Below, piece after piece: positions 544-41,264 of a stretch of 41,264 nucleotides of DNA (within the stretch, counting starts at the first letter, position 1; each line of letters starts with the position of its first letter). The notes below the pieces were generated by a model. The model saw only the letters and a program-made list of their open reading frames with translations. It was not told the origin of the DNA and made no database searches. Made by a program: the position numbers and the translations under genes. Source of the stretch: a virus; the IMG/VR virus record IMGVR_UViG_3300024262_003478, positions 1-41,264 of that record; one strand, 5' to 3'.

Positions 544-744
544 TTAATTGCTAAAAAAAATGTCCTCTATTTTCAAATCAAACCAGTCTGCGATCAATTT
601 CGCTCTTTTTAGTGTTGGAGTCCTTTTATCATTAACATAAACAGATAATTCTGATCTGGCTATCCCTATGCTTTTGGCTACAAAGTCCATTCTTAAGCCT
701 TTTTCTTCTATCAGCTTTCTGAGTTTAGTTTTAGTGTTTTTCAT
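544..744 (-). CDS. Cro/CI-like helix-turn-helix regulator
   Basis: Protein of 66 aa consisting of a single XRE-type five-helix DNA-binding domain. The recognition region is FVAKSIGIARSELSVYV (about 21-37), followed by the usual NDKRTPTLKRAKLIADWFD. The size matches Cro-type proteins with no oligomerisation domain. The ATG at 744 has AAAGGAT just upstream. It is the first gene behind the strong leftward promoter at 857-884 and faces the rightward regulator at 971, so it is placed like Cro in a bistable switch. It could also be a plain early repressor; no operator has been demonstrated. Confidence 0.82.
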   Translation of the reverse strand: MKNTKTKLRKLIEEKGLRMDFVAKSIGIARSELSVYVNDKRTPTLKRAKLIADWFDLKIEDIFFSN

Positions 745-856: not shown

Positions 857-884
857 ATTATATACCTTTTAAAATCCTTGTCAA
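857..884 (-). promoter_or_regulatory. Strong leftward early promoter
   Basis: Read on the minus strand: TTGACA (884-879), 16-bp spacer, TATAAT (862-857), both hexamers perfect for sigma70/sigmaA. Transcription would start near 850, giving a leader of about 105 nt that carries the ACTCTATATA repeats before the HTH gene at 744. It is the best candidate for the promoter driving the early leftward genes. Confidence 0.75.
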
Positions 885-922
885 TACCCTATCAAATATT
901 TTTTAAAAAACTTTGAAATATA

Positions 923-931
923 TGTTATAAT
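923..931 (+). promoter_or_regulatory. Extended -10 element for the rightward regulator
   Basis: TGtTATAAT at 923-931 is an extended -10; the -35 position (903-908, TTAAAA) is poor. The expected start is near 938, about 33 bases before the TTG start at 971. The -35 regions of the two divergent promoters are about 20 bp apart, so occupancy of one would influence the other. Confidence 0.5.
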
Positions 932-970: not shown

Positions 971-1339
971 TTGGTAAATAAAAAAAGTAAAACATACAAA
1001 GATTTTGGAGTTGCTTTAGATGAATTAAAAGAAGATATGGAAATTTCATTTGAAACAATAGGAATAAAAGCTCAGATATCTCCAAGCTATCTCTGGAAAA
1101 TAACTAAATTAAGAAATCCTACAATGCCTAAAGATGAGATAATAAAAAAAATTGCAAAGTTCTTTTATGTAAAACCAGAATATTTTTATGAATGGCGTTT
1201 AAAACGTGTCTTAGATTATATAGATCAAAACCGCAAATTCCTGGACATAATAGAACGGGCCATGAAGAAGTATACACCTGCTGAAGTAGGTAAAGAAGAA
1301 GAATATGAAGAAGAATTAGTATCAGAAAAAAAGGGATAA
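971..1339 (+). CDS. XRE-family regulator, probable lysogeny repressor
   Basis: Protein of 122 aa starting at TTG, chosen because AAAGGAG lies 6 bases upstream at 958-964. An N-terminal helix-turn-helix domain (about 8-78) shows IGIKAQISPSYLWKI as the scanning/recognition helices and a typical closing segment KIAKFFYVKPEYFYEW. The C-terminal 40 residues are helical and very acidic, with no peptidase motif, so it is not a LexA/CI self-cleaving repressor. It starts the only multi-gene rightward unit and is divergent from the Cro-like gene, so repression of the leftward early promoter is likely. A copy of its first codons recurs at 3681. Confidence 0.78.
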   Translation: MVNKKSKTYKDFGVALDELKEDMEISFETIGIKAQISPSYLWKITKLRNPTMPKDEIIKKIAKFFYVKPEYFYEWRLKRVLDYIDQNRKFLDIIERAMKKYTPAEVGKEEEYEEELVSEKKG

Positions 1340-1437: not shown

Positions 1438-2286
1438 ATGAGCAAAAAGTTATATTTTACTATTCCATTTTTGGTTTTAGTATTGGTTTTTGGTTTTGGG
1501 TTATTTACATCGTGTAAAGCAGAAGAAATAATTGAAGAACCGGTAGTAGAAGAAATAGTAGAATCAGAAGAAGAAATTATAGAAGAGCCAATTGAAGAAA
1601 TAATAGACTTAACTCAAAATTTTGATGGCGTAGAAATAAAGTGTACCAGAGTCATAGATGGAGATACAATTGAAATTGAAGACGAAACTGGAAAAAAATA
1701 CAGAGTTAGATATATAGGAATTGATACTCCAGAAACTTCAGAAGATTATGGAAATATCGCTACAGAAAAAAATAAGGAATTAGTTGAGGGTAAGGTAATT
1801 AAACTTGAAAAAGATATATCAAATACAGATAAATATGGAAGGATATTAGCTTATGTCTATGTGGGAGATATCTTTATAAATGCTTATCTTGTTCAAGAAG
1901 GATATGCTCAAATTTTCACATACCCTCCAGATGTAAAACATGCTGATTATTTCTTAGAACTTCAACAAGAAGCTAAAGAAAATAATAAGGGATTATGGGG
2001 TATTGAAATAATTGAAGAAGAAAAAGAACAGGAACAGATTCAAGAACAGCCCCAAGAACCAGAGGAAGAAGTAATAATAGAAGAACCAGCCAAAGAAGAA
2101 CAACCTATAAAAGAAGAACCAAAACAAGCTCAATATTGTGGAAGTATAAATTCCGATGTATACCATTATCCCTCTTGTGGTTCAGCTAAACGGATAAATC
2201 CTGAAAACCTAATTTGGTTTAGTGATGAAAATGATGCTAAATCCAAAGGATATAGACCTTGTAAAAAATGTAATCCACCTGGATAA
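1438..2286 (+). CDS. Secreted lipoprotein with staphylococcal-nuclease domain
   Basis: Protein of 282 aa. Residues 1-26 are a lipoprotein signal (Lys-rich start, hydrophobic core, lipobox LFTSC with Cys26). A Glu-rich spacer (28-57) leads to an SNase domain (about 62-188) with DGDT (74-77), Arg91, Asp96-Thr97, Glu99 and Arg135 in TDKYGR, matching D19/D21, R35, D40-T41, E43 and R87 of micrococcal nuclease in order and in spacing within each cluster. A second Glu/Pro-rich linker (192-230) joins a C-terminal segment with YHYPSC and CKKC that resembles small Ada-type metal-binding modules. AAAGGAGG precedes the ATG. A phage-encoded, surface-anchored, calcium-type nuclease expressed beside the repressor suggests a role in the lysogen, for example cutting incoming DNA; that role is inference. 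Confidence 0.9.
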   Translation: MSKKLYFTIPFLVLVLVFGFGLFTSCKAEEIIEEPVVEEIVESEEEIIEEPIEEIIDLTQNFDGVEIKCTRVIDGDTIEIEDETGKKYRVRYIGIDTPETSEDYGNIATEKNKELVEGKVIKLEKDISNTDKYGRILAYVYVGDIFINAYLVQEGYAQIFTYPPDVKHADYFLELQQEAKENNKGLWGIEIIEEEKEQEQIQEQPQEPEEEVIIEEPAKEEQPIKEEPKQAQYCGSINSDVYHYPSCGSAKRINPENLIWFSDENDAKSKGYRPCKKCNPPG

Positions 2287-2355: not shown

Positions 2356-3675
2356 ATGAATCTATTAAATAAGTTTAAAAAACTTTCACAACTTAAAAAA
2401 AATATATTTTCAGGCACTCTTTTAGCAGGAACACATATTATATTATTATTAGTTGCTTTTCCAATATATATTAGGTATCTAGGTGTAGAGAGATATGGAT
2501 TGTGGGCAGTAATTTCAGTTGTACTTTTTTTTAGCCAAATGGGAGATTTAGGAATTAATGAAGCTGTAATAAAATATACAGCAGAGGAATATGGGAAAAA
2601 AAATTTTCAAGAGATTAATTCATATATTGTTACCGCTAACTTAATATTAATTATACCTTCATTATTAATTATAATTGCATTAACGATTTTTAATGAAAAC
2701 ATATTGGATTTATTAAAATTAACTGGCAGTCTTCGTCAAGAGATTAAATATTTAATTCCATTTTTTGGCATTTTAACATCTTTAATATTTTATTCAAATA
2801 TTATGTGGGGTACATTAAAAGGAGTTGGACGTGTTGATTTGGCCAATTATATTTTTATAATTGTTAGCTTTTTACAAGTAATAATTTCTATTATTTTAAT
2901 AATTTTAGGTTTAGGGGTGTGGGGATTATTTTTGGGTAATTTCATTTTATATATTTTTTTATTTATTTTATGCTTTTTAATACTAAAGAAAGTTTTTAAA
3001 TTAGAGATATTTAGATTAAATTATTTTGATATTAGAAAAATAAAAAAATTAACAAAATTTGGTGGTACTATATTTGGAAGCCGGTTAATTGCAATGTTCT
3101 TAGATCCTTTCAACAGAATAATTATTACAAGGTTTATAGGTTTATCGGCAGTGGCATATTATGACATTTCGCTAAAAGTGGTTTTATCTCTAAGGAGTCT
3201 TTTTCAAATGGGACTAAGTGCAACTATGCCGAAAGTTAGCGAGTTGAATGTAAGCAGTGTAAATCCAAAGTTAGAAATTTCTAATATACATAGAAAAGGA
3301 ATGAGATTTATATTGTTTTTTGCATTGCCATTTTTTGTGCTAATGTTTTTATTTGGAAAACCAATTCTAAATTTATGGCTAGGAAATAATTATGGTATTA
3401 ATATCTTGATGTCTTTAAGATTTTTTTTGGTAGCTTATTTTATTAATCTATTAAGTGTTCCGGCATATTATATTTTTATGGGGATTGGTAAAGTAAGATT
3501 ATGCTTTAATAATATTGCTATTCAATCTTTAATTAATGCAATTGTTATTTTATTTATTATTATGATTAGAGATAGAATAAGTTTAATAGAAGTTATATCA
3601 ATTTCTTGTATCAGCATTATAATATCAGCATTCTATATATTAGTTAAATTTAAATTGTTAAAATTACAGGGATGA
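2356..3675 (+). CDS. Oligosaccharide flippase, Wzx/MATE-like
   Basis: Protein of 439 aa with about 12 hydrophobic helices and short basic loops, the length and pattern of the polysaccharide transporter family (Wzx, RfbX; MVF clan). The start region carries the typical FSGTLLAGTHIILLLVAFPIY helix and the G(V/L)ERYGLWA motif after the first helix pair. These proteins flip undecaprenyl-linked oligosaccharides to the outer leaflet. The ribosome site is weak. It lies 69 bp after the nuclease lipoprotein on the same strand, and it has no polymerase or transferase beside it, so in a lysogen it would act on host sugar lipids, altering surface glycans (inference). Confidence 0.88.
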   Translation: MNLLNKFKKLSQLKKNIFSGTLLAGTHIILLLVAFPIYIRYLGVERYGLWAVISVVLFFSQMGDLGINEAVIKYTAEEYGKKNFQEINSYIVTANLILIIPSLLIIIALTIFNENILDLLKLTGSLRQEIKYLIPFFGILTSLIFYSNIMWGTLKGVGRVDLANYIFIIVSFLQVIISIILIILGLGVWGLFLGNFILYIFLFILCFLILKKVFKLEIFRLNYFDIRKIKKLTKFGGTIFGSRLIAMFLDPFNRIIITRFIGLSAVAYYDISLKVVLSLRSLFQMGLSATMPKVSELNVSSVNPKLEISNIHRKGMRFILFFALPFFVLMFLFGKPILNLWLGNNYGINILMSLRFFLVAYFINLLSVPAYYIFMGIGKVRLCFNNIAIQSLINAIVILFIIMIRDRISLIEVISISCISIIISAFYILVKFKLLKLQG

Positions 3676-3680
3676 GGATT

Positions 3681-3761
3681 ATGAAAAGTAAAACATATAA
3701 AGATTTTGGTGATACCTTTTGCTTGGCCTTGGGATATCAAAAAAATCTCAAAAAGACTTAG
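3681..3761 (+). pseudogene. Remnant of a second copy of the 971 regulator gene
   Basis: A GAGG site precedes an ATG that opens 26 codons beginning MKSKTYKDFG, then stops. Bases 3684-3709 match 983-1008 with one mismatch, the start of the HTH gene. Further on, another frame encodes ISKRLRNL, similar to ITKLRNP of the intact regulator, so the copy seems shortened and frameshifted. It marks the right edge of the regulator-nuclease-flippase block. Confidence 0.6.
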
Positions 3762-3778: not shown

Positions 3779-3809
3779 AGGGGATAACATACATAGTACA
3801 TTATCCCCT
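3779..3809. terminator. Convergent terminator hairpin
   Basis: Perfect 9-bp inverted repeat AGGGGATAA (3779-3787) and TTATCCCCT (3801-3809) with a 13-base loop, between the rightward flippase block and the leftward holin gene (stop at 3816). AT-rich tracts flank both sides (AATTTTTG rightward), so it probably terminates both converging transcripts. Confidence 0.65.
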
Positions 3810-14776: not shown

Positions 14777-15262
14777 TTATCCTCTTTCCATCTCGTTGGA
14801 GTCACTCGGTCTAAGTTCCCAATACTTAGAAATGCAATATTCCTTATTATATTTATCCTGCGGTACTTCCTCGTCTCCAAGTTTCACTTTACCGCTAAAG
14901 GTAGCCTTTGCTGCCCTTACCAACCAAATGTCTGAAGCTGTTTTGTATAAATTATAATAATTAGCTTTGATGTAAACCGCTGTTTGTGCGGTGGTAAAAG
15001 TATAAATTCCATTGATGTCATCCCCCGTATAATCCCCTTCATTTATTGGAGTATCTTCAGCAGAATCAAGTATTACATTATCCAAATATTTGTAGTCACA
15101 TAACCAAATCAGATAATCATCATTTTCATAAGCTAACGCTACATCGTCTAAGTAGTCTCTGTACTTATTCAGATATTTTGTAATTTCATCATCTGTAAAA
15201 TCTTCTGAATCCTCATCCTCATCTTCAATTAGTATTCTTACTTCATCAATTAGCTGGGACAT
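14777..15262 (-). CDS. Head-tail connector adaptor (gp6/gp15-like)
   Basis: Protein of 161 aa. The acidic helical start (QLIDEVRILIEDEDEDSEDFTDDEITKYLNKYRDYL) is typical of gp6-like adaptor proteins that dock under the portal. Ribosome site GGGAGG. It restarts the morphogenesis genes after the glycosylation block, and its first 17 bases overlap the end of the last glycosyltransferase, so the block is fused into the operon. Confidence 0.68.
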   Translation of the reverse strand: MSQLIDEVRILIEDEDEDSEDFTDDEITKYLNKYRDYLDDVALAYENDDYLIWLCDYKYLDNVILDSAEDTPINEGDYTGDDINGIYTFTTAQTAVYIKANYYNLYKTASDIWLVRAAKATFSGKVKLGDEEVPQDKYNKEYCISKYWELRPSDSNEMERG

Positions 15263-15854
15263 TTATTTTAGCCTCCCTCACCATAAGAATTTTATAATAT
15301 TTTTTCTTATCCTTTTTCCTATCAGCACTCCGCAAATCATTTCTATGCAGTAGCTCAAATTCTGTTACCTTCTGGCTGGTATATCCTTCTCCTACCCTGT
15401 CTAAATTTGCAAATAACTTTCCTTTGTCTAAAATCATCTTGTGCGTTCCCCAATAGTGCAGCCCATCCTTGTATCTGAAAAATCTATTAGTGCGCCTGTG
15501 CCTTCGTCTATCGCCCTGCTCGCCTATTTGTATTATACCAGTATCAGCTTCCAGTTGGGGAATTTCACCAACCAGTATTTCGTCTGTATCCAGGTTCAAA
15601 CAAATATCACCGTCTTTTAGTTGGTCAAGATATATATTCCTCTTTTCAACCTCATCAAGTCCACCGATTAAAGTAACTGATACCTTGTCTTTTAAATATT
15701 TCAAAGTACCATCCGTGGAAAAATTACTATCCCCAGGAAAGTCTGCAAATCTGCCGTCAATACAAATAATTTTGTCTACTTTACCAATTACAGATTCTAC
15801 ACATTCTTTTATAAGTGGCCAGTCGTTATAAGTTATTATCGTTGCTACTAACAT
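15246..15854 (-). CDS. GT2-type glycosyltransferase
   Basis: Protein of 202 aa with a GT-A fold start (LVATIITYNDWPLIKECVESV), CIDGRF in place of the usual D-G-S, and the metal-binding DTDE at 89-92. The C-terminal half is basic (QGDRRRHRRTNRFFRYKDG) and ends in a short acceptor region with GLHYWGTHKMI. It should transfer a sugar from a nucleotide donor. It is the last gene of the glycosylation block, overlapping the methyltransferase upstream by 7 bp and the adaptor gene downstream by 17 bp. Confidence 0.75.
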   Translation of the reverse strand: MLVATIITYNDWPLIKECVESVIGKVDKIICIDGRFADFPGDSNFSTDGTLKYLKDKVSVTLIGGLDEVEKRNIYLDQLKDGDICLNLDTDEILVGEIPQLEADTGIIQIGEQGDRRRHRRTNRFFRYKDGLHYWGTHKMILDKGKLFANLDRVGEGYTSQKVTEFELLHRNDLRSADRKKDKKKYYKILMVREAKINVPAN

Positions 15855-16366
15855 TTCGATTCCCAGTAACCAATATTTCCCATTACTTTGACATTACCAA
15901 GCTCGTTTACAAATTTGATAACCCATTGAGATACCTTTCTGGGATGTACCTTTGTATCGTGAAACAAAACTCTGCCACATCTTTTAACCAATTCAAAATC
16001 AGCTTTTACATTTTCATAAGAGTGATTGCCATCAATAAAAGCAAAATCAAAATCTATATCTTTGAGTATACTTTTTATATCTAATTCTCCCTTTACCAAA
16101 TGAAATGTAATTTTATCTGTGACTTTTAAATCATCCCACATTTTATATTTTTCGGGATAATCAACAATATCAAATGTATGAACTTTTTTTGCAAAATCTG
16201 CTATATATGCAACTGACATTCCTTTATATGTCCCTATTTCAATTGCTGTATTAATTTTTATACTGGGAAAAAATTCTATGAAATCCTTCTCCAAAGTAGC
16301 AGAACCAGAGCCCTTAAATAAATCATTATCTTTAGTATACTCAAACACACGTATCACTTTATTCAT
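15848..16366 (-). CDS. Class I SAM methyltransferase (Methyltransf_24/CmcI-like)
   Basis: Protein of 172 aa. Motif I is AIEIGTYKGMS (about 41-51), the acidic loop end is HTFDIVD, and DFAFIDGNHSYENVKADFELV with the later GRVLFHDTK gives the metal-assisted type seen in CmcI and sugar O-methyltransferases (Asp and His near FIDGNHSY). GGAG lies ten bases upstream of the ATG. It is in the glycosylation block, so a sugar hydroxyl is the likely substrate (inference). Confidence 0.78.
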   Translation of the reverse strand: MNKVIRVFEYTKDNDLFKGSGSATLEKDFIEFFPSIKINTAIEIGTYKGMSVAYIADFAKKVHTFDIVDYPEKYKMWDDLKVTDKITFHLVKGELDIKSILKDIDFDFAFIDGNHSYENVKADFELVKRCGRVLFHDTKVHPRKVSQWVIKFVNELGNVKVMGNIGYWESKC

Positions 16367-16367
16367 G

Positions 16368-17507
16368 TCAAACTCCTAACTCCCCTTGATAAATATAATA
16401 AGGTTCTGGCCCAAGCCAGAAATTATCATCTATAAAATCCTTTGCTTTCATATCGTTATATATTTTTGTCCCAGGCAACACCCATAATTGTTTTAATGAA
16501 CCCACGTTATCAGGCTGTATTATCTCCAAAAACTGCCTCGTTTCCTCTCTGGTCTGTTCATTATTTAACATTCCGTTATATATCATCAATGCACATAAAT
16601 TGATGCCAACTTCTTTTACTGCTAATGCTGCCTTGATATTTTGTTCAACTTTAATGTGCTTATTATATGCATCTAAAACCTGCTGGCTTCCTGATTCAAA
16701 CCCAATTGAAACTTCATAACAACCAGCTTTTTTGAGTAGATTAGCCAATTCGATGTCCATACCATCTGCTCTCATAGTTGCAAAGAAACGAATGCCCTTA
16801 CTGGCAAGACGGCCCATGATTTCTTTGGTAATATCAAGATTGCATGACAAGCTATCATCTTCAAATACAAAATGCCTTTTATTAAATCTGTCTATAATAT
16901 AATCTATTTCTTCTACGATATTATCAGCAGTTCTAACTCTGTATTTCTTCCAAACTTTATGCGTTGAGCAAAATGTACAATTTCCCGTGCAGCCCCTTGA
17001 TGCTATAATAGGCACTCTTATATCTGCTTTACCAATATATTTATCATTATCAAGATTCGCTAACTCCCATGCAGGAAATGGTATTGTATTAATATTAAGC
17101 TCAGGACTTTGTGTGAACTTATCACCATTACCAATTAAAATCTTCTCTAAACTTGCTTCCCCTTCACCAATAACTATGTAATCTATATATTCATAATTCT
17201 CTGCTAATTGCTGTGCCATAATTGAAGCATGAGGGCCACCAGCTATTGTTTTAGCATCGTATGTTTTGGCAATCTCTAAAACTTTTAAAGATTTATGCCT
17301 TCCTGGAGTAAGCATTTGCACACCCACAAAATCAGGCTTAAACTCTTTTAATTTTGCCTCAAAGTCAACCCAATTTCCTAAAAAGCCGTCATAATATTTA
17401 ACCTCGGCAATGTTTTTAATATAACCAGCTAAATACAATAATCCTAATACTGGATTTGAACGCCCACCCTGTGAGACATTAGGAGGGTTTACTAATAATA
17501 GTTTCAT
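16368..17507 (-). CDS. B12-binding radical SAM enzyme
   Basis: Protein of 379 aa. Residues 1-128 form a cobalamin-binding Rossmann domain (LLLVNPPN, GVQMLTP, IAGGPHAS, VIGEGEASLEKIL); the classic DxHxxG histidine is absent (DGFLGN), as in many base-off members. The radical SAM core follows with Cys173-x3-Cys177-x2-Cys180 in SRGCTGNCTFCS, then FEDDS and SIGFESGS. Such enzymes often methylate unactivated carbon. It ends one base before the ATG of the O-methyltransferase-like gene and overlaps the upstream methyltransferase by TAATG, so it probably modifies the sugars or acceptor made by this block. Confidence 0.85.
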   Translation of the reverse strand: MKLLLVNPPNVSQGGRSNPVLGLLYLAGYIKNIAEVKYYDGFLGNWVDFEAKLKEFKPDFVGVQMLTPGRHKSLKVLEIAKTYDAKTIAGGPHASIMAQQLAENYEYIDYIVIGEGEASLEKILIGNGDKFTQSPELNINTIPFPAWELANLDNDKYIGKADIRVPIIASRGCTGNCTFCSTHKVWKKYRVRTADNIVEEIDYIIDRFNKRHFVFEDDSLSCNLDITKEIMGRLASKGIRFFATMRADGMDIELANLLKKAGCYEVSIGFESGSQQVLDAYNKHIKVEQNIKAALAVKEVGINLCALMIYNGMLNNEQTREETRQFLEIIQPDNVGSLKQLWVLPGTKIYNDMKAKDFIDDNFWLGPEPYYIYQGELGV

Positions 17508-18193
17508 TATTTATTCTTGTGTTTCATAACAAATAATCCATCTAAACCTTTCCAACCTAAACCTGCAAACTTATTCTTATCTCTGAAATCAGCACCAGAT
17601 ATTAAATCATTATCAAATTTTATCTTCTTATATAGAGGATAATCCTCTTCTAATCCAAGTTTGTCCATTTGTTCAATATACCAATCTCTTGTTTGTGCAG
17701 TTCTTCTATTACCACCATACATGCTTCTAACAGGAAATATAAAATTAGGTGGATAACCTTTACGTCTAAATAAAAAATGAAACCATGTTTGAATATATAA
17801 AAGTAAAGTATCTGTAAAAATTTGAGATAACCCCTTTAAAGCAATAAGAATTTCATCTTCTTCAAGGTATTCTATGGTATTAATTGCAAATACAATCTCC
17901 CATTTTTTATCCCAATTAACTGTATCTATCATATCGGCCTGAAAAACATTTTTAGCAATAGAATTGTCAACTGCATATTGCACAATATCAAATCCTTCAG
18001 CGTTCTCACCTAATTCTTGCAGATAATGAGTTATCCATCCCATGCCACAACCAACTTCAAGTATCTTCTTATTATGAAAATATTTTGATATTACTTTGGC
18101 AGATTCTGGATAATGAATTGTTCGTTGTGTATTATTTTCTGCATTATTACGTGAATCAAAAAATTTTGGTTTAAATCTATCTGATTCTCTCAT
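17507..18193 (-). CDS. Class I SAM methyltransferase
   Basis: Protein of 228 aa with motif I ILEVGCGMGWITHYL (44-58), FDIVQYAVD after strand 2, FQADMID and WEIVFAINTIEYLEED after strand 4, the layout of Methyltransf_11/25 enzymes. The C-terminal part (about 150-225) is a lid with aromatic residues. Target unknown; its place between a glycosyltransferase and the B12 radical SAM gene points to a sugar or a glycolipid-like acceptor. Confidence 0.8.
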   Translation of the reverse strand: MRESDRFKPKFFDSRNNAENNTQRTIHYPESAKVISKYFHNKKILEVGCGMGWITHYLQELGENAEGFDIVQYAVDNSIAKNVFQADMIDTVNWDKKWEIVFAINTIEYLEEDEILIALKGLSQIFTDTLLLYIQTWFHFLFRRKGYPPNFIFPVRSMYGGNRRTAQTRDWYIEQMDKLGLEEDYPLYKKIKFDNDLISGADFRDKNKFAGLGWKGLDGLFVMKHKNK

Positions 18194-18928
18194 TTATTCC
18201 CATTCCTTTGGTATTTCTTTTAAATTGTCCTCTTTAATTAGTTTGTATTTTTTTTCAATAAAGTGCTTCTCACCATTCAGCGGTATCCCTTTTTTTGCAC
18301 TTCGTTGTGCCCATTTCATATATCTTTTCCCTTTTTCAAATAATTCAGCATCACTCTTAAGAAGTGAATAATGTTTTAATGCGATATTATTATCATGAAC
18401 TACGTTAAAACCCTCAATTCCTTTCATGATCCATTTGCCATTAAAACACAGATGCTCATGTACCTCACCATAATATTCCGTTCTGGTGTCTTTCCTATAT
18501 AGCCTTAGATGTGGTTCAAGTCCCCTGTCAGAATTTATTGTCTTAACATCTCTGATTAAATTTGCTGTCGGGAATACAAAACCAAATACATCCTTGTGCT
18601 TGTCGGCTCTTATTTCATCTATTAACCGTGATATTGATTTTGAATATGTCTCATCGACATCTATCTGCAAAACCCACTCTGATGTAACTTCTGCAAGTGC
18701 GATATTTTTCTGTTCTGAAAACGAATCTGGCATCTCGTTTATTCTTAAACATATATTTGCGCTATCCTGCTTTTGGAAGTATTTAATCTTATCTACCGTA
18801 TTATCTTTCGAGCCACCATCTATTATTACATACTGGTCAGGCTTGACATAATCCCTTAACCACTCAAGCGTTTGCAATATAAAACTCGATTCATCCTGAC
18901 AGATTGTTAGACTTGAAACTTTATCCAT
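18194..18928 (-). CDS. GT2 family glycosyltransferase
   Basis: Protein of 244 aa from the ATG at 18928-18926, which has AAGGAG seven bases upstream; an in-frame TTG six bases earlier is less likely. GT-A motifs: LTICQDESSFILQTLEWL, VIIDGGSKDNT (34-44), SFSEQKNIAL and the metal-binding DVDE (90-93). The region around 145-170 with YYGEVHEHL is typical of SunS/WaaE-like transferases. The start overlaps the end of the preceding gene by eight bases (ATGGATAA). Confidence 0.85.
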   Translation of the reverse strand: MDKVSSLTICQDESSFILQTLEWLRDYVKPDQYVIIDGGSKDNTVDKIKYFQKQDSANICLRINEMPDSFSEQKNIALAEVTSEWVLQIDVDETYSKSISRLIDEIRADKHKDVFGFVFPTANLIRDVKTINSDRGLEPHLRLYRKDTRTEYYGEVHEHLCFNGKWIMKGIEGFNVVHDNNIALKHYSLLKSDAELFEKGKRYMKWAQRSAKKGIPLNGEKHFIEKKYKLIKEDNLKEIPKEWE

Positions 18929-19670
18929 TCTCAAGCTCCTTAAATAACGCTAAATGCCATTCTCTAAATTTATCCCAAGTAAAATTTATTGAATACCTAT
19001 CCTTTTGCATTATAGATTTTTCAATAGACTTAAAATAGTTTATTAACTGGCTGTAATCCTTATATATAAAATCAATATCGGTTTTAAAGGTATGTATAAA
19101 ACCTATATCCCTTGACACTACTGGCACTCTTGCATATATGGCATTTAATATATCCATAGAGCCACCTTCCGCAAGTGATGTTTGAAGTAAATAATCTATA
19201 CTCTGGAAAAACTTATCATTGGTTATATCTGTATGTTTAAATTCAAAAATACCCAATAAATCCTTTTTAAGTCTCTCAAGTTCGCCTCTGTTTTTTCTAC
19301 CGGTTGAGTAATCTCTACCACTTGTTCCTATTACAATTTTCTTTTTGCTGTTAATAGAAATTCCCATATACGGGCATACCTTAATTTTAGAAGATTCTAT
19401 TCCGTGTTTTATAAGCTCGCTTTGTCCATAAGATGACATACAAATAATCAAATCAGCTTTGTCTAAAATAGTTGTATCATCATCATCAAGGTGCGTAAAG
19501 AACACAATATCAAATTTAGATTTTATGAGGTTAAAATGTTGCCAGTATTTCCAATTCACATAATATGTTATATCTGCTCTTTTGTTATCCAGAACTCTGC
19601 CAATTTTTACAATCTCTCTGCCAATTTTGTTGAGTATCCAACCATCGTCAGGGTATATTATTCCAATCAT
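18921..19670 (-). CDS. GT4-like glycosyltransferase (GT-B fold)
   Basis: Protein of 249 aa. The N-terminal half is a Rossmann-like domain with FFTHLDDDD and ADLIICMSS; the C-terminal half holds IVIGTSGRDY and the nucleotide-sugar signature TSLAEGGSMDILNAIYARVPVVSRDIG, with Glu in the usual position. It is shorter than the usual 350-400 aa of GT4 enzymes, so the N-terminal domain is reduced. TAATG overlap with the 796-aa transferase. Confidence 0.75.
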   Translation of the reverse strand: MIGIIYPDDGWILNKIGREIVKIGRVLDNKRADITYYVNWKYWQHFNLIKSKFDIVFFTHLDDDDTTILDKADLIICMSSYGQSELIKHGIESSKIKVCPYMGISINSKKKIVIGTSGRDYSTGRKNRGELERLKKDLLGIFEFKHTDITNDKFFQSIDYLLQTSLAEGGSMDILNAIYARVPVVSRDIGFIHTFKTDIDFIYKDYSQLINYFKSIEKSIMQKDRYSINFTWDKFREWHLALFKELENG

Positions 19671-22060
19671 TAGTATGCTCTCTTATTACTTTTATGTTTT
19701 TTCCATTCAAAATCTTTCGTAGGTAGGGTTCCTATTTTTAAGCCAAGTTTCCATGCAACATAATCCAAAGATAACTGATCCCTATGTGAGCCATTTTCAA
19801 TCCCTCTCCAAACACCCTCGCCAAACTCTTTTACAATATCAGTATGTTTTCTTAAAATGATATTACCTGCATGTAATCCATAATCTTTCGGATATCCTTC
19901 CTTTGCGATTTTTGTAATTTGCCCATCTATAACATTTGGATAATCAAGCCTGTACTGCTTACAGACCTTTGCTTCCCCATATAAACATTTCCTGGCAAGA
20001 TGCAGTTTCATTAAAATATCACAATCATTAGTCAATAATCTGTTTATATCAACCAGTATTTTAAAATTACAATCTATATATAGACTAACTTCAGCATCTG
20101 GGAAGTATCTACATAAAAGCCACTTGTATAATCTTGATTGCCTTCTTGGCTCAAGTATCTGATCTACTTTTATCACATTCCAGAAATTACTTTTAATATC
20201 AGTATTGCTAAAGAGATAAAATTCCCAATCAGGATTTGGATAATGGTCTTCTATGATATTATCATATTCACCTATATTGACCGATACTACTATCTTATTA
20301 TGCTTTTGTTTTTTTTTTATGTTCGTTATCTTTACATCATTTGCTACATATATATCTGTATCCTTTTTTTTACGCAACCTTTCAAGCGCTTCTGCGGTTA
20401 CCTTTCTACTATTTATTTTGGATTCCACCGCTGTTCTGTGTCCATAATGATGCACATAGGAATGTTTAATCCAATAAGTTTTATATCCAACTTTTTTTAT
20501 ACGATTATAAAAATCAGTATCATCGTAATATGCAATAGGAGACATGCGATAATCAAATACCCCGATTTTATCTATCACATCCTTACTGGTAAGAAAACAA
20601 AATCCAACAAGTTCAATTTCCTCATATCCTCTTGGCAATATATTGGGAATATTCTGTATTTCTTCATCCTTCATATCAAATCTTCTTCTTGAATAATTTA
20701 TAATCATCTGTTTAGTTCTTGACCATGAAGTAGAGGGGCCAAGTAATCCTACATCCGGTAAGCTAAAACCAGCTTTAAGTTTTTTTAACCAATCTTTTGT
20801 AACTATAGTATCAGAATTCAAAAAACAGAGATAATTATAACTTGCTGTTTTAATGCCCTGATCAGTACCATAAGAAAATCCCTTATTTTCTTCATTAGTT
20901 ATCAATGTAAATCCAAGTTTTGCTTGCTGTTCAGATATATATTTTTTGGTAACTACGTTAGAGCCGTTATCTATTATAATAAGTTCATAATCAGAGGTAT
21001 ATTTAATCACGCTTTCAAGACATTTTTTAAAATAATCCAAGGCATCTCTTACAAGAATGATTACTGATACCCGAGATGTTTTTGTTTCTACCTTGCCAAG
21101 TTCTACGTCATTGACTACATATAAATCTGATGACTTTTTACGTTCGTCAAGTTTTTTCTTGTTCTCCCCTCTTGTAACTGTATTCAATCCCATTTCATTT
21201 GTAGTTTTACTTCCAAAATGATGGACATAAGAAGCCGTACACCATACCATTTTAAAACCAGTCTTATCAACCCTCCATGCAAAATCTACATCTTCATGCC
21301 AGGCAAGTCCATATCTTCTCCAATCAAATACTCCAATCTTATCAAATACTTCACGCTTAACAATCCAGCAAAATGCTGTAAGGCGAGTAATTGTATATTT
21401 TTCAGGGGCTATATCTGCATAGTGATTAATTGTAGTTTCATCTTCAATCTTAAACCTACCTATTGATTCTGGGATAGTCTGCATTGGAACTGTTCTACAA
21501 GTGGAAGGGCCTACTATTCCAACATTATTAGTATACTTAAATCCTTTAAGCATCCTTGGAAGCCAATCATGAGTAACCACACAGTCGGAGTTTATAAAGC
21601 AGATATAATCAAATGTAGCTATCTTTATACCCTGATTCCAACCGTAGGATATTCCCATATTTTCCTTATTGGTTATGAGCTTATAATCTATATACCCTAT
21701 ATTTTTAAGGTATTTTTTAGTCTCGGCATTAGAGCCGTTGTCTATAATTATGAGTTCATAGTTATCTGTATATAAAGCAATACTCTCAATACATTTCTTC
21801 ACATATTTAAGAGCATCCTTTATAAGGACAATTATTGAAACATTCTCGTGTTTTATATAATCTTTTAATTTTATAAATTCAGTACCATGTTTAGATATTA
21901 TGATTTTTTTAGATATTATGGTTTTACTTTCACTTGGATAATGTGCAACACCTTTATTTATCCATCTCTCAGCAATCTTATCTGGTATATTAGCCTCATC
22001 ACCCTTTTTATATCTTACTGGATGCAGATTCTTATCCCTGTTTAAAATTACCTTAATCAT
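19670..22060 (-). CDS. Three-domain glycosyltransferase with virion-type N-terminal module
   Basis: Protein of 796 aa from the ATG at 22060-22058, which overlaps the end of the preceding gene (ATGATTAA); a TTG start 57 bases earlier is less likely. Residues 1-45 match the N-terminus of the 121-aa protein next door (AERWINKGVAHYPSE against ADRLVNRGKAHLLPE). Residues 72-320 are a GT2 domain (IIIDNGSN, INSD 156-159, WHED 254-257). Residues 330-580 are a second, clearly duplicated GT2 domain (IIIDNGSN, LNSD 414-417, YYDD 511-514). Each ends in a similar SDLYVVNDV/TDIYVANDV segment. Residues 588-796 resemble the DUF616/TOD1-like transferase domain (EPRRQSRLYKWL, YIDCNF). It could add at least two or three sugars in succession. 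Confidence 0.85.
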   Translation of the reverse strand: MIKVILNRDKNLHPVRYKKGDEANIPDKIAERWINKGVAHYPSESKTIISKKIIISKHGTEFIKLKDYIKHENVSIIVLIKDALKYVKKCIESIALYTDNYELIIIDNGSNAETKKYLKNIGYIDYKLITNKENMGISYGWNQGIKIATFDYICFINSDCVVTHDWLPRMLKGFKYTNNVGIVGPSTCRTVPMQTIPESIGRFKIEDETTINHYADIAPEKYTITRLTAFCWIVKREVFDKIGVFDWRRYGLAWHEDVDFAWRVDKTGFKMVWCTASYVHHFGSKTTNEMGLNTVTRGENKKKLDERKKSSDLYVVNDVELGKVETKTSRVSVIILVRDALDYFKKCLESVIKYTSDYELIIIDNGSNVVTKKYISEQQAKLGFTLITNEENKGFSYGTDQGIKTASYNYLCFLNSDTIVTKDWLKKLKAGFSLPDVGLLGPSTSWSRTKQMIINYSRRRFDMKDEEIQNIPNILPRGYEEIELVGFCFLTSKDVIDKIGVFDYRMSPIAYYDDTDFYNRIKKVGYKTYWIKHSYVHHYGHRTAVESKINSRKVTAEALERLRKKKDTDIYVANDVKITNIKKKQKHNKIVVSVNIGEYDNIIEDHYPNPDWEFYLFSNTDIKSNFWNVIKVDQILEPRRQSRLYKWLLCRYFPDAEVSLYIDCNFKILVDINRLLTNDCDILMKLHLARKCLYGEAKVCKQYRLDYPNVIDGQITKIAKEGYPKDYGLHAGNIILRKHTDIVKEFGEGVWRGIENGSHRDQLSLDYVAWKLGLKIGTLPTKDFEWKKHKSNKRAY

Positions 22061-22418
22061 TCCACTTCTCAAACTTGTTTTTTTTCTTCCTTTTTCTTTT
22101 AGGTTTAGATTCTTCAAAACTTGTAAATCGTTCTGGGATAGGCTCTATTAAATCAACATCAGTTACAACCTCTTTTACTGGTTCAGCAAGTTCTCTAACT
22201 TCTCCTACTTTTATTTTTATTTTTTCTAATGGGACTTTAATAGGCCACTTGGCTTTTCCAGAATATTCCTCTATTACTTTTATTTCTTTTTTAGTAGGCA
22301 CGTAATCGCTGAAAGGTATTTCTGGTAGTAAATGCGCCTTACCTCTGTTGACTAATCTATCAGCTTCCCTCTGCCTTACTTCTTCTACCTTACCAGTTTT
22401 GTTAATTACAATTTTCAT
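22053..22418 (-). CDS. Small head-associated protein sharing a module with the big glycosyltransferase
   Basis: Protein of 121 aa encoded just after the major capsid gene. Residues 1-34 (MKIVINKTGKVEEVRQREADRLVNRGKAHLLPE as a whole; key part ADRLVNRGKAH) resemble short N-terminal modules of small proteins that follow capsid genes in many phages. The middle is Pro/Glu-rich and the end strongly basic (KPKRKRKKKNKF). TAGGAG precedes the ATG. It may be a head decoration or completion protein, or the acceptor/adaptor for glycosylation. The function is not known; the shared module is seen directly. Confidence 0.65.
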   Translation of the reverse strand: MKIVINKTGKVEEVRQREADRLVNRGKAHLLPEIPFSDYVPTKKEIKVIEEYSGKAKWPIKVPLEKIKIKVGEVRELAEPVKEVVTDVDLIEPIPERFTSFEESKPKRKRKKKNKFEKWND

Positions 22419-24372: not shown

Positions 24373-24840
24373 GTGAATAAATTTTTTAAAATAGGAAATC
24401 AAAGATTTATAAAAGTTAAATGTCCCGATTGTGAACTTATGCACAATGTTTCTCATAAAAATTATTATGCTCAAAAAAATGGTAAACGTAATCTTTCTTT
24501 TAGGTGTACTAAGTGTGGACACGCCAGAGCAATGAAAACAAGGAGGAATCCAAATTTGAGAAAAGTTAATTCCAATGGCTATATTAAAATTTATGTTCCG
24601 GAAAATCCTATGTCTGATAAAAGAGGTGAAGTCTATGAACACCGTCTTGTAATGTCTAAGATTCTTAATCGTCCTCTTCAAAGTTGGGAACACGTTCATC
24701 ATAAAGATGGGAATAGGGCAAATAATTCTCCAGATAATCTTGAACTTCACCCCAATAGCGAACATCAAACAATAAGATTTATGAAAGAAAGAATTTATTA
24801 TCTTGAAAATTTGCTTACAAAACATAATATTCCTTTTTAA
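24373..24840 (+). CDS. HNH endonuclease, inserted on the opposite strand
   Basis: Protein of 155 aa starting at GTG. An N-terminal zinc ribbon (CPDC near 18, CTKC near 54) is followed by RKVNSNGYIKIYVPENP, YEHRLVMSK and the HNH core WEHVHHKDGNRANNSPDNLEL, typical of phage HNH homing nucleases of the HNH_3 type. It is the only rightward gene inside the late region. It interrupts the gene order between a 125-aa gene and the 75-aa head gene and brings its own promoter, as mobile nucleases do. Confidence 0.88.
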   Translation: MNKFFKIGNQRFIKVKCPDCELMHNVSHKNYYAQKNGKRNLSFRCTKCGHARAMKTRRNPNLRKVNSNGYIKIYVPENPMSDKRGEVYEHRLVMSKILNRPLQSWEHVHHKDGNRANNSPDNLELHPNSEHQTIRFMKERIYYLENLLTKHNIPF

Positions 24841-33801: not shown

Positions 33802-33965
33802 ATCCTCTCCCTCCAAATCCAATATCCTTTGCCGTCAATAAATAATCTACCCAGCTTCTCCATGCTTAAAAATTTCTCCTCAAACTCCTTCAGTAATTTA
33901 TCCTTCTCTAAAATCATTGCAATTAATTTTTCTTTGCCTAATTGTTGTAACCTTTGATAGTTCAT
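33798..33965 (-). CDS. 55-aa coiled-coil protein
   Basis: ATG at 33965-33963 overlaps the TGA of the radical SAM gene (ATGA), and the stop overlaps the next start in the same way. The product has a leucine-heptad helix (LQQLGKEKLIAMILEKDKLLKEFEEKFL) then LGRLFIDGKGYWIW. Coupling on both sides supports it. Function unknown. Confidence 0.62.
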   Translation of the reverse strand: MNYQRLQQLGKEKLIAMILEKDKLLKEFEEKFLSMEKLGRLFIDGKGYWIWRERI

Positions 33966-34858
33966 AACAGCCCCTCTATACTTAATAATTTTCTATATTT
34001 CCTATTTTCAAACATATCTAAAAATTGATTAAAACTCATCCCCTGAAACCATTTATGATTATTTACCCATTGAGATAGGGGTATTAATTTGCGATCCTTT
34101 GAAAAGTTATATCTCATAACATAGGCATTTTGATTTCTTGATTTTAGGTAATTTGCTCTGAATAAATCCTCTTCCAAGGTAGTATTAAAGCCAGTTAGCA
34201 TTAGCCAGGTACAGCGATTAATCCCGTTTTTTTGAAGTAGAGTTATAGCCCTATCTACATCATCAAAATAATCCAAACTATCAAAAGCAAAATGCAGTTC
34301 CTTATGTCTAATTGTTTTTAACTCATCTATAATATCTTGATTCAGTAATCTACAGTCCAGTCCTTGGTTAAAATCCAACCTGATTTTATTTTCTCTTGCC
34401 TGCTTACATATCAATTTAAAATGTTCGGGCAGTGCTAAAATATTATTATCAAGTAAAATTATATCTTTAGATTCGCTATCCCATAAATCCAGTAAATCAC
34501 CAACTGCCCTAATCTTACCTTCCTTCTCTGGCACAATACACCAAGGACATTTTCTAATACAACCACGACTACAAAAACCCATATTTATTCGTGGTTTAAT
34601 TTTTTCTATTTCATCCGGTAAATTAATACTAAGACTATAACCACTACCACCAATTAGGCATTTAGGATCATCTTCCCAGTCAAAACATTTAGATCTATTT
34701 CTTTTAAAAACACAGGATACATAGATTTTATCTGCTAAGGGTTTATATAAAGGAAAATTCCATACAACCTCATTACCTCTATTAAGATAATATTTTTCAA
34801 TCTTCTTTAAGGCTAAATTAGGAATTTTACTATCTATGTCTATTATCAATATTTTCAT
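33962..34858 (-). CDS. Radical SAM protein
   Basis: Protein of 298 aa. The N-terminal 90 residues look like a reduced cobalamin-binding-type Rossmann domain (KILIIDIDSKIPNLAL ... YVSCVF). The iron-sulphur motif is Cys100-x3-Cys104-x2-Cys107 (RGCIRKCPWC), followed by LDNNILALPEHF, DFNQGLDCRLL, HFAFDSLD and the YNFSKDRKLIPL end. It forms a 5'-deoxyadenosyl radical; similar proteins occur in early regions of other phages without known substrate. Overlap ATGA with both neighbours. Confidence 0.83.
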   Translation of the reverse strand: MKILIIDIDSKIPNLALKKIEKYYLNRGNEVVWNFPLYKPLADKIYVSCVFKRNRSKCFDWEDDPKCLIGGSGYSLSINLPDEIEKIKPRINMGFCSRGCIRKCPWCIVPEKEGKIRAVGDLLDLWDSESKDIILLDNNILALPEHFKLICKQARENKIRLDFNQGLDCRLLNQDIIDELKTIRHKELHFAFDSLDYFDDVDRAITLLQKNGINRCTWLMLTGFNTTLEEDLFRANYLKSRNQNAYVMRYNFSKDRKLIPLSQWVNNHKWFQGMSFNQFLDMFENRKYRKLLSIEGLL

Positions 34859-36459: not shown

Positions 36460-37095
36460 TCAATTGGGGAACTCTTGTATTTTTTCTTTCCATTTAAGAT
36501 TATCTTTTAGGAATATTGGTATATTTAATTCCATCGCCTGATTAATAATATTTTGTACCCACTCTTTTTTGTGGACTGGTTTTGGAGTTAAGCCACCAAT
36601 TATTATCCAATCTAACGATAAATATTTTGTTATTGGTTCTGGTTCAGACAATAATGGTTCGTAGGATATAAATTTAATGTTATCCATTCCCGAAAAAGAA
36701 CCGTGTATGTGGGATTGATTTTTCTCTTTTCCGGTAATAGTAGTACCAAGCCAGCAATTTTTGGGAAATATAAAATCTTGATACCTTTGAGGAAATTTAG
36801 TTAAAAATATAAAAGTATGATAACTTGGTAAAGCATAAATATGAAACAATATTTCGTTTACCCATTTTTTAGGTATCCAATCACCAAAAATTTCATGAGT
36901 AGAACCTACAAATATTTTAGATGGTTTTTTAATTTTTTCTAAATCATAAAATATATCCGAATCCCATCTAATTTCTGGATTCCAACCAAATCTCTTATAC
37001 ATTCTAATAGCATAGCAATACCAACAATCATTTTTACATAACCCCTTAATCGGATTAATTGTATAATCGCACCATTCTATTTTTGTTCTATTCAT
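36460..37095 (-). CDS. DUF5131 (phage Gp37/Gp68-like) protein
   Basis: Protein of 211 aa. MNRTKIEWCDYTINPIKG followed by Cys20-x3-Cys24-x2-Cys27 (CKNDCWYC) is the exact start of the DUF5131 family; later KIFVGSTHEIFGDWIP, FIFLTKFPQRY, WLGTTIT, ISYEPLLS and DWIIIGGLT match its conserved blocks. The cysteine motif and TIM-like pattern suggest a radical SAM relative. The protein is a little short for the family. Substrate unknown. It overlaps the 3D-domain gene (ATGA). Confidence 0.85.
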   Translation of the reverse strand: MNRTKIEWCDYTINPIKGLCKNDCWYCYAIRMYKRFGWNPEIRWDSDIFYDLEKIKKPSKIFVGSTHEIFGDWIPKKWVNEILFHIYALPSYHTFIFLTKFPQRYQDFIFPKNCWLGTTITGKEKNQSHIHGSFSGMDNIKFISYEPLLSEPEPITKYLSLDWIIIGGLTPKPVHKKEWVQNIINQAMELNIPIFLKDNLKWKEKIQEFPN

Positions 37096-41049: not shown

Positions 41050-41200
41050 TAAATTCCTTGTAGAATTTAGCTATATCTTTTTTATCAAATCCTACCATTG
41101 TCATCAGTTCCAAAAAGTTGATCCTTTTCCTGCCCTGCCGCATCATCATTTCTGCTTCGGATTTAATTTGTTCTAAGCTATAAACTTTTTTGAATTTCAT
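41012..41200 (-). CDS. 62-aa early hypothetical protein
   Basis: Helical, basic (LEQIKSEAEMMMRQGRKRINFLELMTMVGFDKKDIAKFYKEFIG). The ATG at 41200 marks the exact end of the 90-bp terminal repeat. In the circular form it lies 20 bp inside the HNH gene; in the alternative right end (41201-41264) a different upstream sequence precedes it. No ribosome site is obvious in either context. No family recognised. Confidence 0.65.
   Translation of the reverse strand: MKFKKVYSLEQIKSEAEMMMRQGRKRINFLELMTMVGFDKKDIAKFYKEFIGHREYYYPKER
41111..41200. repeat. Right copy of the 90-bp terminal repeat
   Basis: Identical to 1-90. Identity ends at 41200/90, directly at the A of the ATG of the 62-aa gene, so the two alleles diverge exactly at the start codon. 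Confidence 0.93.
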
Positions 41201-41264
41201 ATCAGTTGTAATTGTTTGTCAGATTTTCTAATGTCTATGTTATTATTTATAATTTTGTTTCCTT
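41201..41264. other. Alternative sequence upstream of the 62-aa gene
   Basis: These 64 bases do not match 91-154. They are AT-rich and non-coding, with AATGTCTATG, which resembles ATTGTCTATG at 847-856 in the immunity region. They may be an allele in which the control region lies next to the 62-aa gene without the HNH gene, or an assembly branch. Confidence 0.5.

Follow-up and report, generated by a model that had tools for sequence, protein, structure and literature searches.

A probable lipid-anchored phage nuclease encoded in a moron cassette behind an immunity-type promoter region

What might a phage gain from a nuclease tethered to the surface of its host cell? The question is raised by an open reading frame (ORF) at 1438–2286 of an IMG/VR phage record (41,264 bases; this whole stretch is referred to as the window), which encodes a putative lipoprotein with a staphylococcal-nuclease (SNase) domain and lies directly after a gene for a helix-turn-helix (HTH) regulator. 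An earlier note on this DNA had taken the gene for a surface-anchored nuclease moron and a candidate superinfection exclusion system. The first part of that proposal holds at the level of sequence, in that a moron for a predicted anchored nuclease follows a promoter region of immunity type. For its role we favor, with moderate confidence, a YokF-like phage-borne surface nuclease that would act as an envelope barrier to incoming DNA.

Architecture of the nuclease

The ORF occupies exactly 1438–2286 on the plus strand and encodes 282 residues, with an ATG start and an AGGAGG motif 11 nt upstream. Its parts are as follows.

1438–2286, plus strand: gene of the predicted anchored nuclease, 282 residues (signal and lipobox, residues 1–26; spacer, 27–60; SNase domain, 65–188; acidic spacer, 189–228; Ada-like domain, 229–282)
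1438–1515, plus strand: export signal ending in a lipobox-like LFTSC with Cys26 (PROSITE-type lipoprotein rule)
1630–2001, plus strand: SNase catalytic domain with D74, D76, R91, D96, T97, E99, Y133 and R135 (Pfam, PDB sequence and fold matches)
2122–2283, plus strand: C-terminal Ada-like zinc-binding domain with His in place of Cys38 (Pfam Ada_Zn_binding, alignment to 1ADN)

The Pfam SNase family (PF00565) matches residues 89–187 (3.7e-24), PDB SNase sequences align to residues 70–188, and the AlphaFold model matches solved SNase structures (E ~3e-11, target-normalised TM-score ~0.8). The earlier note had listed R91, D96, T97, E99 and R135 as the full catalytic set; these residue numbers were right, and the five residues align with what we take to be R35, D40, T41, E43 and R87 of SNase. 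D74, D76 and Y133 (presumably SNase D19, D21 and Y85) are also retained, and in an alignment of eight proteins D74, D76, R91, T97, E99, Y133 and R135 are invariant. Judged by these alignments, the active site is intact.

At the N-terminus, MSKK is followed by a hydrophobic core and then by LFTSC with C26. The PROSITE-type lipobox rule is passed by the nuclease alone among the 65 window genes, in agreement with the lipoprotein signal proposed earlier, and the long Glu-rich spacers are likewise present (approximately residues 27–60 and 189–228; pLDDT mostly low). We infer that the product is probably an exported, lipid-anchored nuclease, whose activity would be Ca2+-dependent.

The earlier note had overlooked the C-terminal zinc domain, as well as the co-directional flippase gene downstream. 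Pfam Ada_Zn_binding matches residues 233–280 (4.8e-8), and alignment to the solved Ada domain 1ADN retains the other three zinc cysteines and places His at the methyl-acceptor position Cys38. Because this acceptor is missing, an Ada-type methyl-phosphotriester repair role was ruled out, and the domain is read as a structural or binding module and not as a repair enzyme.

The cassette and its phage

The HTH regulator, the nuclease and the flippase are encoded in this order on the plus strand. The nuclease is thus co-directional with the putative repressor, as the earlier note had stated, the HTH assignment itself resting on weak matches. The surrounding features are listed below.

544–744, minus strand: divergent Cro/C1-type HTH gene (Pfam HTH_3, 9.9e-10)
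857–884, minus strand: leftward promoter-like site, 12/12 to the sigma-70 consensus (consensus match only)
903–931, plus strand: rightward promoter-like site with extended -10, leading into the HTH-nuclease-flippase operon, 10/12 (consensus match only)
971–1339, plus strand: HTH (XRE-like) regulator, first gene of the operon and candidate repressor (weak PHROG transcription-regulator matches, 4.4e-5; PADLOC capH HTH, 1.7e-7; no match in the Pfam scan)
2356–3675, plus strand: polysaccharide (Wzx/MATE-type) flippase, third gene of the operon (Pfam Polysacc_synt, 1.2e-20; MatE, 9.5e-13)
3684–3709, plus strand: 25/26-nt copy of the start of the HTH gene (983–1008), beyond the flippase (sequence repeat)
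3779–3809, no strand assigned: terminator-like hairpin (14-bp stem) separating the cassette from the late operon that converges on it (minus-strand T-run scored)

We conclude that the HTH-nuclease-flippase operon is a moron cassette and not part of the phage core, because it runs in reverse orientation, is served by a divergent promoter region, is followed by the terminator-like hairpin, has the lowest GC content and carries a nuclease not found in two related phages. Nearly all other genes, for early and recombination functions, terminase, portal, capsid, tail and lysis, lie on the minus strand; the exceptions on the plus strand are the cassette's three genes and a single HNH ORF. The cassette region is the lowest-GC stretch of the genome (flippase 24%, genome 34%). 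Two TerL relatives, G001 (40.6 kb) and G002 (39.9 kb), look complete because each carries direct terminal repeats; they have many structural genes in common with the window, carry their recognised genes on one strand, and yielded no match to the nuclease in either genome. When IMG/VR was scanned with one protein at a time (nuclease, flippase, HTH protein, endolysin), no relatives were confirmed, and neither the phage nor the plasmid collections searched contained a match to the flippase. The 3684–3709 copy opens a 26-residue ORF (MKSKTYKDFGDTF...); it may be a scar left when the nuclease and flippase were acquired through recombination, by insertion or exchange.

Between the cassette and the Cro-like HTH gene lies a 226-bp stretch of 20% GC that holds the two promoter-like sites back to back, such sites being no more frequent across the whole region than in shuffled sequence. 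This switch-like arrangement suggests a latent or regulated state. The earlier claim that the nuclease is made in lysogens was nevertheless not established. No tyrosine integrase or serine resolvase was detectable in the window phage, G001 or G002, while control genomes were positive, and when 84,980 bacterial and archaeal genomes were scanned with a TerL alignment, a single distant relative was confirmed, divergent ones being able to escape such pattern scans. Lysogeny of the window phage is uncertain because no integrase or resolvase was found in the phage and these relatives, and the phage may be non-integrating or lytic. Xer-dependent integration at a dif-like site near the switch was considered and rejected: the top-scoring sites, compared with dif of B. 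subtilis and E. coli, did not surpass shuffled sequence. As for the host, a 37% TerL match in a Ca. Magnetobacteriaceae metagenome-assembled genome was too distant to name one; nuclease homologues on a Carboxydocella plasmid and in Peptoclostridium hint at a Clostridia-like host.

The window genome is effectively circular and probably complete, because bases 1–90 recur at 41111–41200. The 64 bases that follow the second copy and complete the stretch 41111–41264 are found nowhere else in the window, and the upstream neighbor differs between the copies (an HNH gene, 68–496, versus none), which suggests a population variant without that HNH gene. The other plus-strand exception is also of HNH type:

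24373–24840, plus strand: HNH endonuclease ORF, on the opposite strand within the head-gene operon

G001 and G002 have comparable HNH genes close to TerL or portal, and this ORF is probably a mobile endonuclease. Between the head and tail genes, 15246–22418 holds glycosyltransferases, methyltransferase-like genes and a radical-SAM-like gene, with comparable sets in G001 and partly in G002; these genes possibly serve virion or surface glycosylation. The early genes include a radical SAM protein (33962–34858, phrog_9298, 1.4e-59) and a phrog_2045 protein (36460–37095, 7e-43) to which the family assigns no function.

Comparable nucleases and where they lie

The closest annotated phage SNases are those of Anoxybacillus phage A403, Aeribacillus phage AP45 and the SPbeta group. 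YokF of SPbeta, with homologues in phi3T and SPR, is like the window nuclease a phage-borne lipoprotein with a charged spacer and an SNase domain (37% domain identity). It ends, however, in a CxELRxxYPxGVP...DxDxDxxxCER (Excalibur-type) tail in place of the Ada-like zinc domain, and because of this difference the window nuclease is not a YokF orthologue. The settings differ as well: yokF lies near the SPbeta integrase and not beside a repressor, whereas the window gene directly follows the HTH gene, and SPbeta is proven to be temperate. YokF is a prophage-encoded DNase that cuts external DNA and lowers transformation about tenfold (PMC4774983); PMC3929857 describes a surface-bound lipoprotein of external-DNA metabolism that, with a paralogue, supports growth on external DNA. 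What we say of YokF from the literature rests on these two papers.

The lipoprotein-SNase-Ada architecture is not new, because it is present on a Carboxydocella plasmid and in Peptoclostridium. AVX40773 (C. thermautotrophica plasmid pCCELLA01) has the full plan of the window protein (36% identity over residues 1–281, E 2e-55), and WP_025436980 (P. acidaminophilum) has the same order of lipobox, spacer, SNase, spacer and Ada-like domain (35% identity). In contrast to the window gene, that of AVX40773 is plasmid-borne with no adjoining repressor or flippase, and its function is a prediction from sequence.

In A403 and AP45, whose SNases are 42–43% identical to that of the window, the nuclease gene sits in a divergent lysogeny operon after the repressor and a Zn peptidase and before a recombinase. 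These proteins differ from the window's in having transmembrane anchors in place of a lipobox and an Excalibur-type C-terminus, and the recombinase gene that closes their operon has no counterpart in the window phage. Further loci came from an alignment-based scan of IMG/VR followed by ORF and Pfam checks. The gene order is repressor, M78 peptidase, nuclease and integrase in L021; repressor, bPH_3/SHOCT protein and nuclease in L025; and repressor, M78 peptidase, further ORFs and nuclease in L027. In L024 the nuclease stands beside a CI-type HTH gene with an S24 domain, and in L022, as in the window, an HTH-nuclease pair converges on the lysis genes, the nuclease there carrying a signal peptide.

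The nuclease is repressor-proximal in five of the ten best loci, for which the binomial chance would be ~4e-4 if 7.5% of a genome counts as proximal; this value is rough, the 7.5% being an assumption, the positions having been read by eye, and the search alignment having included A403 and AP45. L025 and L027 belong to the A403/AP45 lineage (59% identity). Without these two and the SPbeta-like L029, three of seven loci are repressor-proximal (L021, L022 and L024), with mutual identities of at most ~50% in the pairs checked. Altogether, predicted membrane-anchored SNases lie just 3' of CI-type repressors in A403, AP45 and five IMG/VR phages, representing at least four nuclease lineages.

Several of these genes occupy the X position of a repressor-metalloprotease-X-integrase slot, which in Streptococcus thermophilus phage TP-J34 is held by ltp, a proven exclusion lipoprotein gene (order repressor, metalloprotease, ltp; PMC3952083). 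The comparison with Ltp made in the earlier note stands in part. Ltp resembles the window nuclease in its lipid anchor, spacer, exposed domain and repressor-adjacent gene in a lysogeny module (PMC3952083), but it is no nuclease and instead stops DNA injection through a repeat domain; Pfam and PHROG scans of the window protein gave the SNase and Ada-like domains and no Ltp-type repeat domain.

Certain neighbors recur beside anchored SNase genes and may be functional partners: a bPH_3/SHOCT protein (L025, with a similar ORF in A403), a PH-domain protein (yokE of SPbeta) and a DUF4236-type protein (L027 and Geobacillus plasmid pBt40). The loci concerned are given here.

L002, 3509–4531; L025, 3899–4597; L004, 5704–6186; L027, 3469–4533; L102, 3457–4527: anchored SNase genes with recurring neighbors

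The PADLOC model C3a212 'SNc+LTD' was rejected for the window protein, since the match was confined to the SNase region and the protein has no such second domain. A 637-residue phage protein elsewhere (L020, 3960–5873) combines an internal hydrophobic segment and an SNase domain (56% identity to that of the window) with a C-terminus that looks lamin-tail-type, a plan resembling that model.

Possible roles

The mechanism that we infer, including the timing of expression and the benefit to the phage, is as follows. The nuclease would be transcribed from the immunity-type promoter region together with the HTH regulator and the flippase. Its lipid anchor and acidic spacers would tether the SNase domain in the cell-wall space, on the outer face of the host membrane, where it could cut surface-exposed DNA, be it DNA taken up during competence, DNA from lysed neighbors or phage DNA held up at the envelope; the Ada-like zinc domain would probably aid binding to DNA or wall. 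The net result would be a barrier to incoming DNA that favors the resident phage, and the co-expressed flippase may also alter the surface polysaccharide. Similar enzymes of other phages probably act as such a barrier.

Several points weigh against this scheme. The LFTSC motif is atypical for the strict Gram-positive lipobox consensus (F at -3, S at -1); in the two most similar full-length proteins from annotated records, the same place holds the more canonical IGC and SGC. Exposure at the cell exterior presumes a single-membrane host; if there were two membranes, the protein would point into the periplasm. Finally, nucleases on mobile genetic elements have been argued to protect a prophage from removal by transformation; with no integrase found, that argument may not apply here.

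A nuclease dedicated to superinfection exclusion would cut a second phage's DNA as it crosses the envelope and so protect the infected or lysogenic cell. The recurrence of anchored SNases in the repressor-proximal slot, the equivalent position of the anchor-spacer-domain lipoprotein gene ltp in TP-J34, and an operon flippase that could change phage receptors all speak for it; in P22, gtrABC is listed among the phage's exclusion systems (PMC10883804). We nonetheless think it unlikely that this is the dedicated function. Ejected phage DNA is normally inside the tail during transfer, and might never meet a nuclease in the wall space. The literature search gave no example of an SNase that excludes phages, the protein lacks an Ltp-type domain match, lysogeny is itself uncertain, and the nearest characterised protein, YokF, is documented for external-DNA cutting and reduced transformation and not for phage exclusion. 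Phage exclusion is still a possible activity of the window nuclease and a reasonable extension of the barrier role, backed by genomic position. A bolder proposal, to which we would give a small chance, is that the recurrent anchored SNases beside repressors form an unrecognised nuclease-type class of superinfection exclusion in the slot of Ltp that would destroy DNA as it arrives at the envelope, in the window phage joined by a flippase that would change the receptor layer as well.

A nutritional role, in which external DNA is degraded as a source of nucleotides and phosphate for the infected or lysogenic host, would fit the report in PMC3929857 (citing Sakamoto 2001) that deletion of yokF and its paralogues greatly cut growth of B. 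subtilis on external DNA. It leaves unexplained both the frequent siting of such genes next to phage repressors and the pairing with a flippase, and we regard it as rather improbable. The least probable reading in our view is a role in the lytic cycle, with host or debris DNA degraded at or after cell death, for nucleotides or to free virions. The homologues in SPR and phi3T carry the annotation 'chromosome degrading nuclease', and a phage without a detectable integrase may be lytic; yet the gene lies outside the late operon, on the opposite strand, behind an early or immunity-type promoter region and beyond the terminator-like hairpin.

The reading of a YokF-like surface barrier to incoming DNA places the window nuclease among enzymes whose architecture and kind are already known, surface nucleases on mobile elements being known to limit transformation. 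Paired as it is with a flippase, it may belong to a cassette for remodeling the cell surface. The point worth testing is the recurrent repressor-side position: repeated siting beside phage repressors, in the slot of a proven exclusion lipoprotein, turns the action of extracellular nucleases against the DNA of rival phages into a testable question.
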